A stretch of DNA of 40,393 nt from a virus, in the IMG/VR virus record IMGVR_UViG_3300044638_003989, positions 1 through 40,393 of that record, one strand, 5' to 3'. The position numbers were made by a program, and so were the translations under genes. The notes under the pieces were generated by a model. That model saw only the letters and a list, made by a program, of their open reading frames with translations, was not told the DNA's origin and searched no databases. Below are positions 18,959 through 37,128 of the stretch, piece after piece (positions within the stretch are counted from its first letter, which is position 1; every line of letters starts with the position of its first letter).

Positions 18959-19035
18959 TGGAGCCTCCAGTGTGAGTCGAACACACAACCTACGCATTAC
19001 AAATACGTCGCTCTAGCCAATTGAGCTATGGAGGC
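18959..19035 (-). tRNA. tRNA-Thr, anticodon UGU
   Basis: On the minus strand a full cloverleaf is present: acceptor GCCTCCA/TGGAGGC (7 bp), a D-arm with GCTC/GAGC, an anticodon stem ACGTA/TGCGT (one G-U pair) with loop TTTGTAA, a five-base variable loop and a T-arm GTGTG/CACAC with loop TTCGACT. The 3' discriminator and CCA are encoded. The loop centre TGT reads ACA codons. The gene is 77 nt including CCA and lies in the leftward transcript between the SSB-like and downstream genes. Confidence 0.95.
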
Positions 19036-21889: not shown

Positions 21890-22195
21890 TTAGTAACCCC
21901 TAATCTTAATCCATTCATTGTGTAACTTGTTGGCATTATCGGATTGAATATTTGAAAACTTTGATGCTTCTACATAGTCGGAATAAGCACTTGTTTCAAC
22001 TGCTTGAAGGCGGACATATTCCGCATAAGCCTCAGTAGTTTTTTTAGTAGCATCCATATACTTTCGAAAAACCTCACTAATTTGATTTGTTGCATCTAGG
22101 CTTTTCTTAGATGCGTCCATGAAAGCTAGAAAAGCTTCCTGTTCGGCGTTTAGTTGTGTGTCAGTCATGTGTTTTTGTGTGTTAGTTGGCGCCAC
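21890..22195 (-). CDS. Small helical hypothetical protein at the start of the leftward operon
   Basis: This is 101 residues from a GTG, or 92 from the ATG at 22168. The GTG has an AGGTGA about ten bases upstream, whereas the ATG has no ribosome binding site. Nearly the whole chain is helical with repeated Asp-Ala-(Ser/Thr)-Lys-Lys units (FMDASKKSLDATN, KYMDATKKTTEAYAEY), suggesting a coiled coil. It is the first credible gene of the leftward operon. No function is evident. Confidence 0.5.
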   Translation of the reverse strand: MAPTNTQKHMTDTQLNAEQEAFLAFMDASKKSLDATNQISEVFRKYMDATKKTTEAYAEYVRLQAVETSAYSDYVEASKFSNIQSDNANKLHNEWIKIRGY

Positions 22196-22388
22196 CTTTA
22201 TTTCGTCACCTGATGGCTAGGTAAGAGGATCGTTGATGGGTTTCGTCGCCCCATGACCCAAAACCTATTTTGCGCTTGTTGAAAATGCGAGCTAATTTTT
22301 TCAACATTTTGATTTTACGGGCTGAGTTGTCGCAATACCAAGCACTTACGACATGACAAAGTTGGTAGCTGCCAGTTGACGTTTGCAC

Positions 22389-22839
22389 GAAGTGGTAGAT
22401 TGTAGTTCTTACCGAGCGGGTGGAACTGCTAGGTAAAACTAGCTTGCCCGCTCTGGTCTTAGTCCCGTACAGGCACCTCCACCCGCCCTGTACGGGATTT
22501 TATGCTTTACTCGATGGCCATACTGCCAAAAGCACGATACTCATCAGAGGATAGGTTTTGTCGCAAGTCCAAGTAAGGTTGGGAGGTATTCCTGCTTGGC
22601 AACCAATGAAATTCACGGAACTCAAGGTCAGGGAAGCGAGACAAGACCGAATAGCGACCAGTAACACGGCGATCCGAAGGGTTAGACTACCAAGGGCAGA
22701 GCTTTGCTTTGCTCCTTAAACCTCCCTTTCTGGAATCTTAGGTAGGGAAGCGAAAACGGAAGGTTGTTTTACGTTCAAACTTTAACCTTTAAATTTTTAA
22801 CTTTTTAATTTAAAAGAATAAATAATTTAGACTTGACTG
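22389..22839. other. Divergent intergenic region
   Basis: No gene is supported here, apart from the RNA structures listed separately. The 5' part contains the pseudoknot-capable hairpins. The middle, 22500-22760, has several short inverted segments, such as GGTTG/CAACC around 22577-22613 and GAGC/GCTC at about 22696-22714. The 3' part, 22775-22830, is very AT-rich with TTTAAC-like repeats and could be a DNA-unwinding or UP-type element before the rightward promoter. The promoter of the leftward operon must lie here, but I cannot place it. Confidence 0.5.
22414..22497 (+). ncRNA. Two-hairpin RNA with pseudoknot or switch potential
   Basis: Hairpin I has outer stem GAGCGGG (22414-22420) / CCCGCTC (22447-22453) and inner stem GCTAG/CTAGC (22428-22432/22439-22443). 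Hairpin II has an 11-bp perfect stem TCCCGTACAGG (22463-22473) / CCTGTACGGGA (22487-22497) with a 13-nt loop, followed by a short T run. Loop bases TCCACCCGC (22478-22486) are fully complementary to GCGGGTGGA (22416-22424) in hairpin I. The elements can therefore form a kissing or pseudoknot structure, or exclude each other. The strand and whether it terminates are uncertain, since both strands can fold. Confidence 0.5.
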
Positions 22840-22875
22840 TTGATTTTTGTAAGAAAAAAGGCATAGTTTTCTTAC
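22840..22875 (+). promoter_or_regulatory. Putative early rightward promoter with overlapping operator-like inverted repeat
   Basis: A TTGATT box (22840-22845) lies 18 bases before TAGTTT (22864-22869), a moderate sigma70-like promoter pointing at thyX. A perfect 9-bp inverted repeat, GTAAGAAAA (22849-22857) / TTTTCTTAC (22867-22875), overlaps the spacer and the -10 box. This is typical for a repressor operator, or it could be a hairpin in the 5' UTR. A second -35-like TTGACT sits at 22833. Confidence 0.45.
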
Positions 22876-22921
22876 AGTTGACAGAGGAGAAAACGCCAAA
22901 AGCAAGCACAAACTCAAAGAA

Positions 22922-23542
22922 ATGAATAACACAGTAGAATTGATTGGACATTACGGCAACGATGAGATTCACGCGCTAAGCGCATGGACTAGCACTAGCC
23001 GCGAGCTGGACGCTAAGAAAAAGGAGCGCATACCAGCGCTTTTAAGCCAGCTAGCAGAGGCCGGACACCACACGCCTTTCGAGAAGTCAATGATCCATTT
23101 TTTGGTGCGCTGCGATACCGCTAGCCACATTCACCTTTTGAAGCATCGCATCGGCGTCTCCGTTAACGGTGAGTCTGCCCGTTACAAAGAAATTAAGGCC
23201 ACCTCAAGCGTCATCCCTAGTGATTGGCCTATTGACATTCAAAATGCTCTTAAAGCGCACGCAATAGACTCTGACAGGCTTTACCACGCAACCATTGCAC
23301 GCTTAACTCCAGCTTTAGGGCGAGCCAGGGCAAAAGAAAGTGCGCGATTTTTCTTGACCTACGCAAATCAGCTTACCCTTGACGTAAGTTTCAACTTCCG
23401 CTCCTTCGTGCATTTTCTTGGTCTTCGCAACAAGCCTACGGCACAAAAAGAAATTAGGGACATAGCTGCGAATATGCTTGACCTAGTGAAAAGCATCGAA
23501 GGAAACCCGTTTAAGGCAACGATTGAGGCTTTTAAGCTATGA
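22922..23542 (+). CDS. thyX: Flavin-dependent thymidylate synthase ThyX
   Basis: The 206 residues have the ThyX fold signatures: AEAGHHTPFEKSMIHFLVRC (47-64), the active-site motif HRIGVSVNGESARY (75-88; catalytic Ser80, His75, Arg76, Arg87) and a C-terminal LRNKPTAQKEIRDIA segment that binds FAD and dUMP. The motif is one residue longer than the usual RHRxxSxNExSxRY and has Lys before HR; this variant is seen in phage ThyX. It methylates dUMP with CH2-THF, NADPH and FAD. It is the first gene of the rightward early operon. Confidence 0.92.
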   Translation: MNNTVELIGHYGNDEIHALSAWTSTSRELDAKKKERIPALLSQLAEAGHHTPFEKSMIHFLVRCDTASHIHLLKHRIGVSVNGESARYKEIKATSSVIPSDWPIDIQNALKAHAIDSDRLYHATIARLTPALGRARAKESARFFLTYANQLTLDVSFNFRSFVHFLGLRNKPTAQKEIRDIAANMLDLVKSIEGNPFKATIEAFKL

Positions 23543-23941: not shown

Positions 23942-23983
23942 CTAAATAAACAACAAAAACAAATTAAAAAGCGGGATATTCTC

Positions 23984-24001
23984 TGTAGCGACTGGTTAGG
24001 C
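23984..24001 (+). other. attC-type 3' half-site at the left edge of the cassette array
   Basis: TGTAGCGACTGGTTAGGC matches the 3' ends of the three internal sites; 16 of its bases are identical to the site ending at 25472. It ends in GTTAGGC, the G^TTRRRY crossover core. No matching 5' half (GCCYAACGTT or complementary arm) is seen upstream, so it is either a truncated attC left by an earlier cassette or an attI-like receptor. Confidence 0.6.
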
Positions 24002-24037
24002 TATGATGCTTTAATTTCTGATTAACCAATAAATAAC

Positions 24038-24202: not shown

Positions 24203-24384
24203 CAAAACGAATCTATAAATTAGTGCCAAGATTTCCCGGCATACTTGTTCCTACCTATAGCAAAGAAGAATATCAAAAGGTTGTTAAATCAGAGGGGCGT
24301 ACGCTTACGTTTCTTTTTGCCGGACTATGCGCAGGATCAGCATTTATAGCTGTCCTTGGGTTCCTCACTGTCTTCTCTGCCTAA
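24199..24384 (+). CDS. Cassette 1 second small membrane protein
   Basis: The 61 residues start MTKRIYKLVPRFPGILVPTY and have one C-terminal transmembrane segment (about 40-60, LTFLFAGLCAGSAFIAVLGF). A start at 24151 would lie inside the upstream gene and is rejected. The stop codon TAA lies inside the GCCTAAC core of attC1, a typical cassette-gene ending. No function can be assigned. Confidence 0.55.
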   Translation: MTKRIYKLVPRFPGILVPTYSKEEYQKVVKSEGRTLTFLFAGLCAGSAFIAVLGFLTVFSA

Positions 24385-24468
24385 CGTTCAAGCTCAGCGA
24401 TAGCCCACTGAAACTAGCCGAACCATGAGCGGCGTCTGCGGGCTATTCGCTGTAGCGCTTGGTTGGGC
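24379..24468 (+). other. attC-like site 1 (90 bp)
   Basis: It begins with GCCTAAC and ends with GTTGGGC, which pair except for wobbles. Inside are paired arms: CAAGC (24389-24393)/GCTTG (24457-24461), AGCGA (24396-24400)/TCGCT (24447-24451) and TAGCCC (24401-24406)/GGGCTA (24440-24445). The interior is a variable terminal loop. Unpaired bases between the arm blocks are asymmetric, as required for strand choice by IntI. Confidence 0.78.
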
Positions 24469-24498
24469 GTCTTTGTCTTTAATTTCTGAATAACCTAA

Positions 24499-24732
24499 AT
24501 GAAAAACATGAACTTATGTATTAACTGTAAGTGGAACGAGTCAGGGGAATGTAAGGCCCCCCAAAATATGACTAGGCTTAATCCCGTAGATGGCAGTGCA
24601 TCTTTCCGGTTTATGCGCATGTGTATATCACATCGAACCGGATTTGGTTCGGGGTGGATAGGGTGTCGATTACACAAACTATGCGGCAGAGAGGGCCGAT
24701 GGTTTCTGCCCAACGTTCAAGCTCAGCGATGA
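24499..24732 (+). CDS. Cassette 2 cysteine-rich small protein
   Basis: The 77 residues start MKNMNLCINCKWNESGECKA. The pattern C..C.W...GEC..P (Cys7, Cys10, Cys18), a later C (about 42) and LHKLCGREGRWF resemble small zinc-binding proteins widespread in phages and mobile elements, where CGREGRWF is recurrent. The reading frame runs into attC2, so the tail LPNVQAQR is encoded by the site itself. It starts after the shared cassette leader. Confidence 0.6.
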   Translation: MKNMNLCINCKWNESGECKAPQNMTRLNPVDGSASFRFMRMCISHRTGFGSGWIGCRLHKLCGREGRWFLPNVQAQR

Positions 24733-24803
24733 CCACAACACTGAAGACTCCCGAAGCATCAGAGTCAACAGCGTGGTCATTCGCCTGTAGCGCGTGGTTA
24801 GGC
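24708..24803 (+). other. attC-like site 2 (96 bp)
   Basis: It begins with GCCCAAC and ends with GTTAGGC. Its 5' half shares AACGTTCAAGCTCAGCGAT with attC1 exactly. The inner arms TGACCAC/GTGGTCA pair over 7 bp, with GCGA/TCGC next to them. The middle is unrelated to site 1, as expected from attC sites that share only their ends. Confidence 0.78.
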
Positions 24804-24898
24804 TCTGTAACTGCCTTGCTTTCCGTGGTTTGAAACTATCTTTCGATTTCGTGAAGATTGTTCTTGAAACCCAAAGCGGTTTGGGTTTTGGTCTGTGC

Positions 24899-25087: not shown

Positions 25088-25389
25088 AAAATAAACACGC
25101 CGCCGCCCTCGGTAAACGGGGCGGCAAGGTCGGTGGGCGCGCTAAGTCGCCCGCGAAGACAACCGCAGCCCAAGCCAACGGCGCAAAGGGCGGACGGCCC
25201 TCGTCAACCGCGTGGGAATACACGGTTGAAAACGCGATCAAAGCCGACGCCGAATGGTGGGAATACCGCAACGGCAGCTTGAAAAGGTGGGGCGATCTAA
25301 CCCGCGCTTGTGATTCCGCGAGTCGATACGTTTTTGAGAAAACCGGACGGCGCATAAAGGCGTGGGTTTCTCTTCTGCCCAACGTTTGA
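25084..25389 (+). CDS. Cassette 3 basic KGG-type protein
   Basis: The 101 residues start MKNKHAAALGKRGGKVGGRA. The segment GKRGGKVGGRAKSPAKTTAA followed by NGAKGGRPS is the K/R-GG repeat pattern known from many small bacterial proteins, often gene-cassette or toxin-antitoxin associated. Its C-terminal half (WEYTVENAIKADAEWWEYRN) is aromatic and acidic. It ends SLLPNV, with the last residues and stop supplied by the attC3 core. DNA or RNA binding is plausible; function is unknown. Confidence 0.5.
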   Translation: MKNKHAAALGKRGGKVGGRAKSPAKTTAAQANGAKGGRPSSTAWEYTVENAIKADAEWWEYRNGSLKRWGDLTRACDSASRYVFEKTGRRIKAWVSLLPNV

Positions 25390-25472
25390 GGTGACCTATG
25401 GACGCAAAACCTGAAACCAATAAAACAATCAGCGGGCACAGCGCGGACATTAGGTCTAGCGACTGGTTAGGC
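25377..25472 (+). other. attC-like site 3 (96 bp)
   Basis: It begins with GCCCAAC and ends with GTTAGGC. Inner arms GACCTA / TAGGTC pair over 6 bp, with ATG/CAT next to them and one bulge. The 3' half TCTAGCGACTGGTTAGGC is the same family as in the other sites. The 5' half differs from sites 1 and 2 after GCCCAACGTTT. Confidence 0.7.
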
Positions 25473-25679
25473 TCCGTCTTCCTTATTTCGTGGGACGCTG
25501 ACCCTCAGCCATGGGAAAACTGGTCGCACCCATACTGCGTAATAATCGGCACCGAGGAACAAGCTAAAACATACGCAAAAGATAGGACTGAAAAGCGCGG
25601 AGGACTTTTCACTGTGGCCGAGATACGTAACGCCCCTGCCTTGGTTTTCATGCCTAATACGACCGACAATAAACCTTAA
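25398..25679 (+). CDS. Cassette 4 hypothetical protein starting within attC3
   Basis: The 93-residue frame opens at an ATG inside attC3, so residues 1-25 (MDAKPETNKTISGHSADIRS onward) are site-encoded. The cassette-specific part (SVFLISWDADPQPWENWSHP, YCVIIGTEEQAKTYAKDR) contains no other ATG, so translation may depend on the upstream site. It is a compact alpha/beta protein of unknown function. The start is uncertain; a non-ATG start after 25472 is possible. Confidence 0.45.
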   Translation: MDAKPETNKTISGHSADIRSSDWLGSVFLISWDADPQPWENWSHPYCVIIGTEEQAKTYAKDRTEKRGGLFTVAEIRNAPALVFMPNTTDNKP

Positions 25680-33715: not shown

Positions 33716-35803
33716 ATGGAAAATAAAACCCACGAATCGCTTACTTATGTATCCAAGGAGCCGGATGTCTCCACATTGCGTAAAGCGTATGAATCAACAA
33801 CCCTTGAACTGGCGCCTTACATCGACTTGTGCCGAACAAGTTATGATGATCGCCGTAACTACTGGCCAGGAAAAAGCCGTGACTTGCGAAAGCACGGTAG
33901 CGATGCTTTTCCGTGGGAGGGTGCTTCTGATACCGAAGCGCACGTTATTGACGAGCGTATTAACCGTCTTGTAGCCCTCATTATGTCTTCGCTCAACCGA
34001 GCGAATGTGCGTGCGTTCCCAACCGAGGCTAGTGACATTCCACGATCCAAGATTGTTTCGTCCTTCATGAAGTGGATGAGCAGCAGCGGTTACATTCCTC
34101 GATTCAAGCGCGAGATGGAACTTGGTGCTAATTACTTTTTGGAGCGTGGCATCCTAATTACCTATGTTGGTTGGCACCGTGAAGACCGAACCTATTTACA
34201 GCAGTTTAGCTTAGAGCAAATTGCTCAGGTTGCGCCAGAAATTGCGCAGGCCATTCTTGCTGGAAATCAGGATGAGCAAGTGATTGCTATGCTCAAGCAG
34301 GCATTTCCTACTGTACAGGATAAGCGAGCAAAGAAGGCATTGGCTCAGTTACGCAAGACGGGCAAAGGCGAGATTCCAATTGTGCGCCGTCAAATTGATG
34401 CTCCTATGGTAAAGACTCTTTCGCCTGATGGAGACTTCTTCTTTCCTCCTTACGTTACAGACCCGCAGCGTGCTCCTTATTGCTTTTGGAAGACCTTCTA
34501 CACCTCGCAAGAGTTGATGAATAAAGTTTCAACTGATGAATGGGATGAAGAGTGGGTTAATTATGTCATCGAGAAGCATCGTGGCGTTAGTGCCGATTCA
34601 ATTGATAACTACGTTGATGGTCGTAAGCAAATTTCGCTTACAACTGTCCATACAAACGATAGCGACTTAATTGAGGTTATCTATGGCTATCAACGTCTAA
34701 TTGATAAAGAAGACAATAGCGAAGGCATTTACTGCACTGTGTTTCACCGCGAGTTTAGCGGTAATGACATGGTCAATGGGTATGCTAAGTTTGAGTTGCT
34801 CAACGGCTATGAGGACTATCCCGTTGTTGTTACCCGCCTAAGCGAAGATTCCAAGCGTCTTTATGACGTTCAGACCATCCCTGACATGCTGCGCGGTATT
34901 CAGCAGCAGGTTAAGGTTGAGCGCGATTCTCGTATTGACCGCAACAGCTTGGCTACGCTTCCGCCAATCATGCACCCCATTGGTAACGCTCCTAGCGATT
35001 GGGGTCCAGGACGCTATGTTCCATACAAACGTGCGGGCGAGTTCCAGTTTGGCCCTATTCCGCAGTTTAACGCTGGTTCTGTTGAAATGGAGAACACCAT
35101 GCAACAGCAGGCTGACCGTCTCGTTGGCCTAGACATTGATAACCCGCTTTCGCAGATTAAGCAGCAGTTTATGGTGGACAAGTTCTTGTCGCACTCGGCG
35201 GAAGTCTTGAATATGTGCTATCGCTGCTTCCAGCGCTTCGGCCCAGACCAAGTGTTCTTTCAAGTTACGGGTGTTGCTGATCCACAACAGTTCAATAAGG
35301 GCAATCCTGACGAAAACTACGATACAACCATTTCCTACGATGTGCTAAATAACGATCCGGAGAATCAAGAATCCAAACTCCAACAGCTTGTTTCGCTTAT
35401 TCAGCTTGACCGTAATGGGCGTATTAACGTTGACGCTCTGCTTGATGTTATCGCCGCTTCTATTGATCCGGTTCTTGCTTCGTCTATTTTGCAGCCTTCA
35501 CAAGCGGCCCAAGAGCAAATCGTCAAGCAGGTTACGGACGACCTGACGAAGATTAGTGCATCGATTGAAATGCCAGCCCGTCCTAATGGTGCGCAAGTGG
35601 CTATGCAGGTTATCCAGCAGTATGCTCAACAGCCTGACGTTCAACAGCGTCTTGCTCAGGATGAAGCGTTCCGTGAACGACTTGAGAAATATCAGGCTCA
35701 ATATACTTTCCAAATGCAGCAGGCTCAAAATGCCCAGATAGGCAAGATTGGGACTGCACCTGCATCTATGGGCGGAATGGAAACGCAAGGAATGGGACAA
35801 TAA
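33716..35803 (+). CDS. Portal protein
   Basis: The 695 residues have a podovirus-type portal layout. An N-terminal wing domain includes YWPGKSRDLRKHGSDAFPWE and ASDTEAHVIDERINRLVALI. The clip/stem section is near 350-480 (QTIPDMLRGIQQQVKVERDS, RNSLATLPPIMHPIGNAPSD). A Gln-rich helical C-terminus (AMQVIQQYAQQPDVQQRLAQ) likely forms a barrel. It forms the dodecameric DNA gate. It directly follows the terminase region, as in most phages. Confidence 0.85.
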   Translation: MENKTHESLTYVSKEPDVSTLRKAYESTTLELAPYIDLCRTSYDDRRNYWPGKSRDLRKHGSDAFPWEGASDTEAHVIDERINRLVALIMSSLNRANVRAFPTEASDIPRSKIVSSFMKWMSSSGYIPRFKREMELGANYFLERGILITYVGWHREDRTYLQQFSLEQIAQVAPEIAQAILAGNQDEQVIAMLKQAFPTVQDKRAKKALAQLRKTGKGEIPIVRRQIDAPMVKTLSPDGDFFFPPYVTDPQRAPYCFWKTFYTSQELMNKVSTDEWDEEWVNYVIEKHRGVSADSIDNYVDGRKQISLTTVHTNDSDLIEVIYGYQRLIDKEDNSEGIYCTVFHREFSGNDMVNGYAKFELLNGYEDYPVVVTRLSEDSKRLYDVQTIPDMLRGIQQQVKVERDSRIDRNSLATLPPIMHPIGNAPSDWGPGRYVPYKRAGEFQFGPIPQFNAGSVEMENTMQQQADRLVGLDIDNPLSQIKQQFMVDKFLSHSAEVLNMCYRCFQRFGPDQVFFQVTGVADPQQFNKGNPDENYDTTISYDVLNNDPENQESKLQQLVSLIQLDRNGRINVDALLDVIAASIDPVLASSILQPSQAAQEQIVKQVTDDLTKISASIEMPARPNGAQVAMQVIQQYAQQPDVQQRLAQDEAFRERLEKYQAQYTFQMQQAQNAQIGKIGTAPASMGGMETQGMGQ

Positions 35804-35804
35804 T

Positions 35805-36017
35805 ATGAATTTAGAACAAGACTTGAAGTGGTTGAGCAATCATCCTCAGTTTGCACGTTTTGTAGCTGGAATTAAAGAAAGCCGCGAGGCTTGCATTAGT
35901 GCTTTGCATGAAGCAAAGCCAGAAAGCATCATGCAAATTAGTGGGCGTATTCTTGCCTACGATGACCTTTTTAAAATGACAAATGCGGATGATCTTATCC
36001 GCCGACATACGCAGTAA
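35805..36017 (+). CDS. Small hypothetical protein
   Basis: The ATG at 35805 gives 70 residues, starting MNLEQDLKWLSNHPQFARFV; a start at 35748 would sit in the portal gene. It is helical with ESREACISALHEAKPESIMQ. It is probably a small head-assembly protein, as its position between portal and scaffold suggests. A 67-bp gap follows with a GGTGG/CCACC hairpin (36032-36058). Confidence 0.5.
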   Translation: MNLEQDLKWLSNHPQFARFVAGIKESREACISALHEAKPESIMQISGRILAYDDLFKMTNADDLIRRHTQ

Positions 36018-36084
36018 CGTCCGTTGACGGGGGTGGTAATAATGAATTATCGCCCACCGTCTCAGGCGTTAATGAGCGTAAAAT

Positions 36085-37128
36085 ATGTCTAATGAAGTTA
36101 CTACGGAGAACGCTGGCTCCGAAATCAAAACAGTGGAAAAGTCGAACATTACAGTTGCCGAGCTTGCCGCTCGACGACTCGGAACCCCCAAGGTTCCCGT
36201 AGAAGCACCTAAAGCTATTAAGGACAATCAGCCGGAACCCGAAAAGGAACCGAAGGTTGGACCCGAACAGCCGAAGGAAAAAGACGTTCTTTCTAAGTTT
36301 GATCTTGGTGAGATGTCAGATGTGGAATTGCGCGAATTATCGGACAAGCTAGGCTCCCGTGCCGTAGCTCGCTTCGGTGAACTCACAGCAAAACGCAAAC
36401 AAGCAGAGGAGCAAATTGCCGCACTTCAGTCCGAACTGAATAAACGCAATCAAGAGTCTCCGCTTGAAGTGAAGTCGGTTGAGAAGAATCCATACGCCGC
36501 TTTAGATACCGTTGAGTCTTTGCAGGCTAAAGCCAGCGAGGTTACAGACGTTATTGAATGGGCTGAGGACAAACTTGATCAGGCTGACCACCTTGCGCAC
36601 GATGACATCGTTACAACCGTCGATGGTAGGGACATGACGAAAGCAGATATTAAAGCTGCTCTCAAAAATGCCCGTAAAGCTAAGGACAAGTTTTTGCCTG
36701 CCCAACTCCAAGAGTTGCAAGCGCGTGAGAATCGGTCTCAATTAAAAAAGTCCTTCGACGAACACGCCCGCAAGGAATTGGACTGGCTCAATGGCGAGGA
36801 TAACGACACCCGTAAGCAATATGAGGCTATGCTTGGCGACAAGCGGCTAACTAAGCTTTTGGAGGCCGATCCCGACATTGCTCCCCAGCTTCCCTACATT
36901 TTGGCTCACGCAGCCAACTCTATGTATGGACGTAAATCCATTCCCCTTACGGACGCTAAACCAAAGATTACACCCCCATCTAGCCCGACTAGCTCAACTG
37001 GTTCTTCGGAAAAACCAGAAGCGAGAAGCAGCAAAGCTATTTCAGAAACCGTCAAACGCTTTAGTTCAACAGGCAGTGTTAGTGACTATGCAGCAATGCG
37101 TGCCCTTCAATTATCTAAACGCTCTTAA
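36085..37128 (+). CDS. Scaffold protein candidate
   Basis: The 347 residues are acidic, Pro/Glu/Lys-rich and partly coiled-coil. The N-terminal 75 residues look disordered (PKVPVEAPKAIKDNQPEPEK). A long charged helix follows (ELTAKRKQAEEQIAALQSEL). Residues 140-230 contain EWAEDKLDQADHLAH-like helices, and a Ser-rich C-terminus includes PPSSPTSSTGSSEKPEARSS. Its position immediately upstream of the major capsid gene is diagnostic for scaffolding proteins. Confidence 0.75.
   Translation: MSNEVTTENAGSEIKTVEKSNITVAELAARRLGTPKVPVEAPKAIKDNQPEPEKEPKVGPEQPKEKDVLSKFDLGEMSDVELRELSDKLGSRAVARFGELTAKRKQAEEQIAALQSELNKRNQESPLEVKSVEKNPYAALDTVESLQAKASEVTDVIEWAEDKLDQADHLAHDDIVTTVDGRDMTKADIKAALKNARKAKDKFLPAQLQELQARENRSQLKKSFDEHARKELDWLNGEDNDTRKQYEAMLGDKRLTKLLEADPDIAPQLPYILAHAANSMYGRKSIPLTDAKPKITPPSSPTSSTGSSEKPEARSSKAISETVKRFSSTGSVSDYAAMRALQLSKRS

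Follow-up and report, generated by a model that had tools for sequence, protein, structure and literature searches.

The two adjacent hairpins in the divergent control region of this tailed phage most likely belong to a structured RNA that is read rightward, and a pseudoknot or two-state behaviour of the pair is plausible in view of one covariation event in related contigs. Our leading, though tentative, reading is that they form the 5' portion of a structured transcript that does not code for protein and for which an alternative pseudoknot may be possible. A second pseudoknot, predicted about 190 bases away in the leftward operon's leader, is better supported than the finding on the hairpins, and it too rests on two distinct sequences.

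The window, that is, the whole stretch of DNA analysed, covers the 40,393 bases of the virus record IMGVR_UViG_3300044638_003989, in which a DnaB-like helicase, an Erf-like annealing protein, an exonuclease, thyX, a large terminase and a major head protein are recognisable. The control region spans about 750 bases, with the first leftward gene running from approximately 22,168 and the rightward thyX from 22,922. Just three other contigs with the same flanks (L002, L010 and L003) were found in IMG/VR. Exact DNA patterns searched in IMG/VR and in GTDB genomes returned these three contigs and no further relatives, a ThyX search of GTDB genomes gave zero matches, and no nucleotide match to cultured phages or plasmids was obtained. 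Phage C75C1, the nearest annotated or cultured phage judged by the capsid (67% identity), has no recognisable copy of the control region. Among more distant exonuclease relatives (L015-L051, 32-43% identity), the blast match to the control region was a 22-nt chance match in L035 only, and L016, which was inspected directly, proved to be a different phage type.

Table 1. Features of the control region and its surroundings, in window coordinates.
Feature	Position	Strand	Description
First gene of leftward operon	21890-22168	-	92 aa, ATG at 22168; 45% identical protein with the same start in L003
Predicted H-type pseudoknot, leftward operon leader	22191-22224	-	S1 22224-22219/22211-22206, L1 A, S2 22217-22212/22196-22191, L3 CGAAATAAA
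Candidate rightward promoter	22376-22401	+	TTGACG...TGGTAGATT, extended -10 type; read by eye
Module with both hairpins and second domain	22404-22825	+	Complete in L010; in L002 until 22752; none in L003 (blastn)
Hairpin I	22411-22457	+	Outer stem ACC GAGCGGG / CCCGCTC GGT, bulged T; MFE fold
GCGGGTGGA	22416-22424	+	5' arm of hairpin I; proposed loop II partner; GCGGATGGA in L002/L010
Hairpin II	22463-22497	+	11 perfect pairs, 13-nt loop CACCTCCACCCGC, then TTTTATGCTTT
TCCACCCGC	22478-22486	+	Loop II strand of proposed 9-bp helix; TCCATCCGC in L002/L010
Second structured domain	22554-22648	+	Closing helix 22554-22562/22640-22648, hairpin 22569-22599
thyX	22922-23542	+	First gene in the rightward operon that is clearly coding; phrog_85, E 7.9e-29

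Both hairpins of the preliminary description were recovered when the segment was folded (Table 1), hairpin I enclosing an inner hairpin, GCTAG-GTAAAA-CTAGC, at 22428-22443. The minimum free energy of the segment was -46.8 kcal/mol, with a z-score of -4.8 on the plus strand, where 0 of 200 shuffles were equally stable, and of -3.5 on the minus strand. The 9 bases of loop II likewise match their partner in hairpin I's 5' arm perfectly, and GCGGGTGGA occurs exactly twice in the 40-kb record, once on each strand at these two sites (shuffles expect 0.26 matches). A 9-bp match of loop II to the rest of the segment was obtained in 125 of 20000 loop shuffles (0.6%), in 2 of 5000 upstream shuffles (0.04%) and with 13 of 20000 random genomic 13-mers used as the loop (0.07%). 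Such a match is thus locally unlikely (about 0.0004-0.006), but since a 40-kb window had been scanned by eye for oddities, the complementarity alone is a modest find and not extreme. Rfam 15 detected only tRNA in the whole window at the gathering score and nothing relevant in 22150-22950 at a relaxed threshold (E up to 5). A group I intron and RNase P were considered and set aside, as a by-eye comparison with their core motifs gave no convincing match.

Both hairpins are kept in two of the three relatives, L002 and L010, and the region is missing from L003. In these two contigs, G22420 is replaced by A and C22482 by T, so that a G-C pair becomes A-U and all nine pairs are preserved. Because L002 and L010 are identical across the hairpins, only two distinct sequences are available, and this covariation counts as one event that lends support to the predicted 9-bp pairing without proving it. 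Nine pairs are present in both distinct sequences, one of them changed on both sides. A shuffle control of this pairing (261 of 500) does not separate it from chance and is uninformative with two sequences. The outer stem of hairpin I is also kept, the C partner of the changed G22420 being deleted and the bulged T lost, and the change of A22411 to G retains pairing on the plus strand only, via G-U. Stem II never varies in these contigs, so that it provides no comparative signal. Indels of 1 and 2 bases among the relatives leave no conserved reading frame in the module.

A rightward RNA is favoured by several comparisons of the two strands. The consensus fold of the three-sequence alignment had a z-score of -5.3 on the plus strand and -3.4 on the minus strand, and the corresponding values for the whole module were -3.9 and -1.6. 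In four helices, pairs that differ among the relatives survive as G-U on the plus strand and would be A-C mismatches on the minus strand. In the second structured domain, the helices of which were picked by hand, the changes leave every pair standard on the plus strand and not every one on the minus strand, and its hairpin gains a complete base pair in the diverged L010 (CCAAGC/GCTTGG to CCATAGC/GCTATGG). Over 22640-22756, on the 3' side of the module, no significant consensus fold was found, and a structure for the complete module is not claimed. A ten-base direct repeat, AGGGAAGCGA, is present at 22630-22639 and 22744-22753, and both copies are conserved in L010. Upstream, TTGACG-15-TAGATT, preceded by TG and common to all four phages, could be a promoter whose start site, at about 22408, would lie at the base of hairpin I.

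It is rather unlikely that the 9-base match reflects an element acting at the DNA level, in which GCGGRTGGA would be a protein-binding site present as two inverted copies in an operator or replication origin, the hairpins being incidental or cruciforms. The two copies are alike beyond the 9-mer (20-nt arms, 80%), they lie between divergent operons next to an AT-rich stretch (22775-22830), and a protein of the leftward operon has weak helix-turn-helix matches. However, the one-strand retention of G-U pairs and the stronger plus-strand fold point to RNA, the stems exceed the shared site in length, and A22475, which is C in L002, weakens the extended similarity of the arms. The same two copies form a quasi-palindrome, and the concerted G/A and C/T changes might instead be a mutational by-product of template switching between imperfect inverted repeats, which would leave complementarity without function. 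Template switching of this kind is documented, reportedly creates and maintains RNA hairpins, and yields concerted changes without selection (PMC8794818, PMC7202029). We regard it as distinctly unlikely here, since copying did not extend to the nearby A22475, which changed to C, and pairing is also retained in the helices of 22554-22648.

Under the favoured reading, that of a structured rightward RNA, we infer transcription, its start site, pseudoknot formation and any regulatory effect as follows. A plus-strand transcript would begin near 22408 and would serve either as a leader read towards thyX or as a separate short RNA with partial termination past hairpin II. Its usual fold would be the nested hairpins I and II; in the alternative, an H-type pseudoknot, hairpin I would give up its 5' arm to loop II. 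Stem II would stay intact with the new helix stacked on it, and hairpin I would be left with a free 3' arm. Loop II has four bases before the 9-mer and none after it, so that standard pseudoknot geometry would allow the 9-bp helix to be stacked on stem II, its deep groove crossed by the four bases. The nested fold was estimated at -46.8 kcal/mol; when both 9-bp strands are freed, the rest of the segment retains -28.9 kcal/mol and the duplex adds -17.8. The two states would thus be roughly comparable before a pseudoknot penalty is applied; such a penalty would tip the balance towards the nested fold by several kcal/mol. Because the estimated energies are close, a two-state RNA is possible. The pseudoknot or switch put forward in the preliminary description is in this way made plausible by the retained structure, the compensatory pair and the similar energies, although the covariation amounts to one event.

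The suggestion of attenuation control was not supported in its simple form. A weak T run does follow hairpin II, and the relatives read TTTCTGCTTT in its place, but the 9-bp pairing takes up no more of hairpin II than its loop and spares the putative terminator stem. A simple terminator/antiterminator switch would not be workable since stem II can stay paired when the alternative forms, and disruption of the terminator stem by the alternative pairing, as in a terminator-attenuator, was not found. The segment shares with attenuator RNAs a U tract and mutually exclusive pairings that involve a pair of adjoining hairpins, and differs from them in the spared stem, the weakness of the U tract and the lack of a conserved leader peptide. 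A short rightward RNA (about 95 nt) in which hairpin I is the functional part, hairpin II simply the intrinsic terminator and the 9-base match secondary is quite improbable: the GC-rich 11-bp stem is followed by UUUUAUGCUUU on the plus strand only and a candidate start is located at hairpin I, but the loop is 13 nt long, the U run is weak and broken earlier in L002 and L010, and hairpin II was missing from the list of a terminator scan, in part owing to a loop longer than the scan allows.

The position between the leftward and thyX operons was correct; a link to either operon found no support. L003 conserves 22125-22403 and the sequence from 22826 onward, and a 158-aa ORF (4384-4860 of L003) occupies the place of the module. 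As this contig lacks 22404-22825 and still carries the leftward leader as well as the thyX region, the module is dispensable, and neither operon requires such a switch. In the near-identical relative L002, about 1.35 kb (L002:1607-2954) substitutes for the stretch matching 22753-22909 in the thyX control region. This segment encodes a C5 cytosine methyltransferase and a small protein that looks HNH-like by eye. Large structured non-coding RNAs such as GOLLD and ROOL occur in phage genomes (PMC12286853). The RNA proposed here would be of the same general kind, but it is shorter, has no sequence similarity to them and has no Rfam match at either threshold.

The leader of the leftward operon provided the clearer comparative signal. 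Its predicted pseudoknot, of canonical H-type form, combines S1 UUACCU/AGGUGA, a single A, S2 GCCAUC/GGUGGC and an A-rich third loop, and in L003 the two helices read UGUCCU/AGGACA and GCCAGC/GCUGGC. All 12 pairs are formed in both distinct sequences, three of them with compensatory changes, whereas slid controls were 25-54% paired with zero compensatory changes. None of 1000 column-shuffled alignments yielded any pseudoknot of this type; a letter-shuffle control, which is weak with two sequences, gave 65 of 500. Among 31,132 aligned columns on both strands, this was the sole site with more than one double change, and two interleaved helices are thus conserved with covariation, in two distinct sequences only. 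The G-U pairs indicate the minus strand, which is the sense strand of the leftward mRNA. The spacing to the ATG is 22 nt in both phages, and the intervening bases differ. A minus-strand ORF at 22206-22388 was rejected as a gene because its frame is lost in L003 and its changes are not coding-like.

This leader resembles, by analogy, the translational operator of T4 gene 32, a 5' leader pseudoknot bound by gp32 (PMC535899). It is likewise a compact H-type knot (6 + 6 bp, 1-nt L1, A-rich L3) just upstream of an A-rich initiation region, and, like the T4 structure with its overlap of segG, it extends into the end of an open frame that lies upstream (PMC535899). It differs in lying 22 nt from the AUG, compared with more than 40 nt in T4, and in the absence of UUAAA repeats. 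An autogenous operator of the gp32 type precedes the gene for a single-strand binding protein that binds the pseudoknot, whereas the 92-aa protein is not a recognisable protein of this type: it had no match in PHROG and none in Pfam above the cut-off. Hairpins I and II have another architecture than the T4 operator. It appears unlikely that the divergent region holds two unrelated RNA switches of a novel type, namely a rightward RNA alternating between two forms, nested hairpins or a stacked pseudoknot of 20 bp, and a leftward mRNA leader whose small H-type pseudoknot would set how strongly the recombination operon is translated in the absence of a Shine-Dalgarno site.

Other elements were observed in the window. 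Upstream of thyX, a hairpin at 22848-22876 (TGTAAGAAAA/TTTTCTTACA) reads GTAACAAAA/TTTTTGTTAC in L003, and this G-C to C-G swap suggests either an RNA hairpin or an operator. Another, at 22270-22307 (GTTGAAAA/TTTTCAAC), has a conserved loop and is identical in L003 despite differing flanks; a plus-strand pseudoknot with one compensatory pair may form there. Integron attC-like sites were recognised by eye at 24375-24470, 24703-24805 and 25373-25474, with a half site at 23974-24002. These sites, with GCCTAAC/GCCCAAC ... GTTAGGC/GTTGGGC arms, are in tandem with small ORFs between them, an apparent gene cassette array in the phage, and no integron integrase was seen among the proteins scanned. At 24696-24805 the minus strand folds better (-46.9 versus -35.9), and one attC-like copy is carried by L067 (5504-5599). 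Clusters of attC sites have already been reported in virulent phages (PMC9892861). A very stable plus-strand hairpin (35971-36080, -45.9 kcal/mol, z -4.7) lies between the gene at 33716-35803 and that at 36085, and a tRNA-Thr(TGT) gene is present at 18959-19035 on the minus strand, L010 having one too.

Structured leader RNAs of uncultured phages are seldom recognised because few relatives are available. If real, the structures described here would provide two compact and testable RNA elements, one of them with clear compensatory changes. Obvious Shine-Dalgarno sites are absent from the recombination operon and thyX genes, and these elements may set the expression of both.
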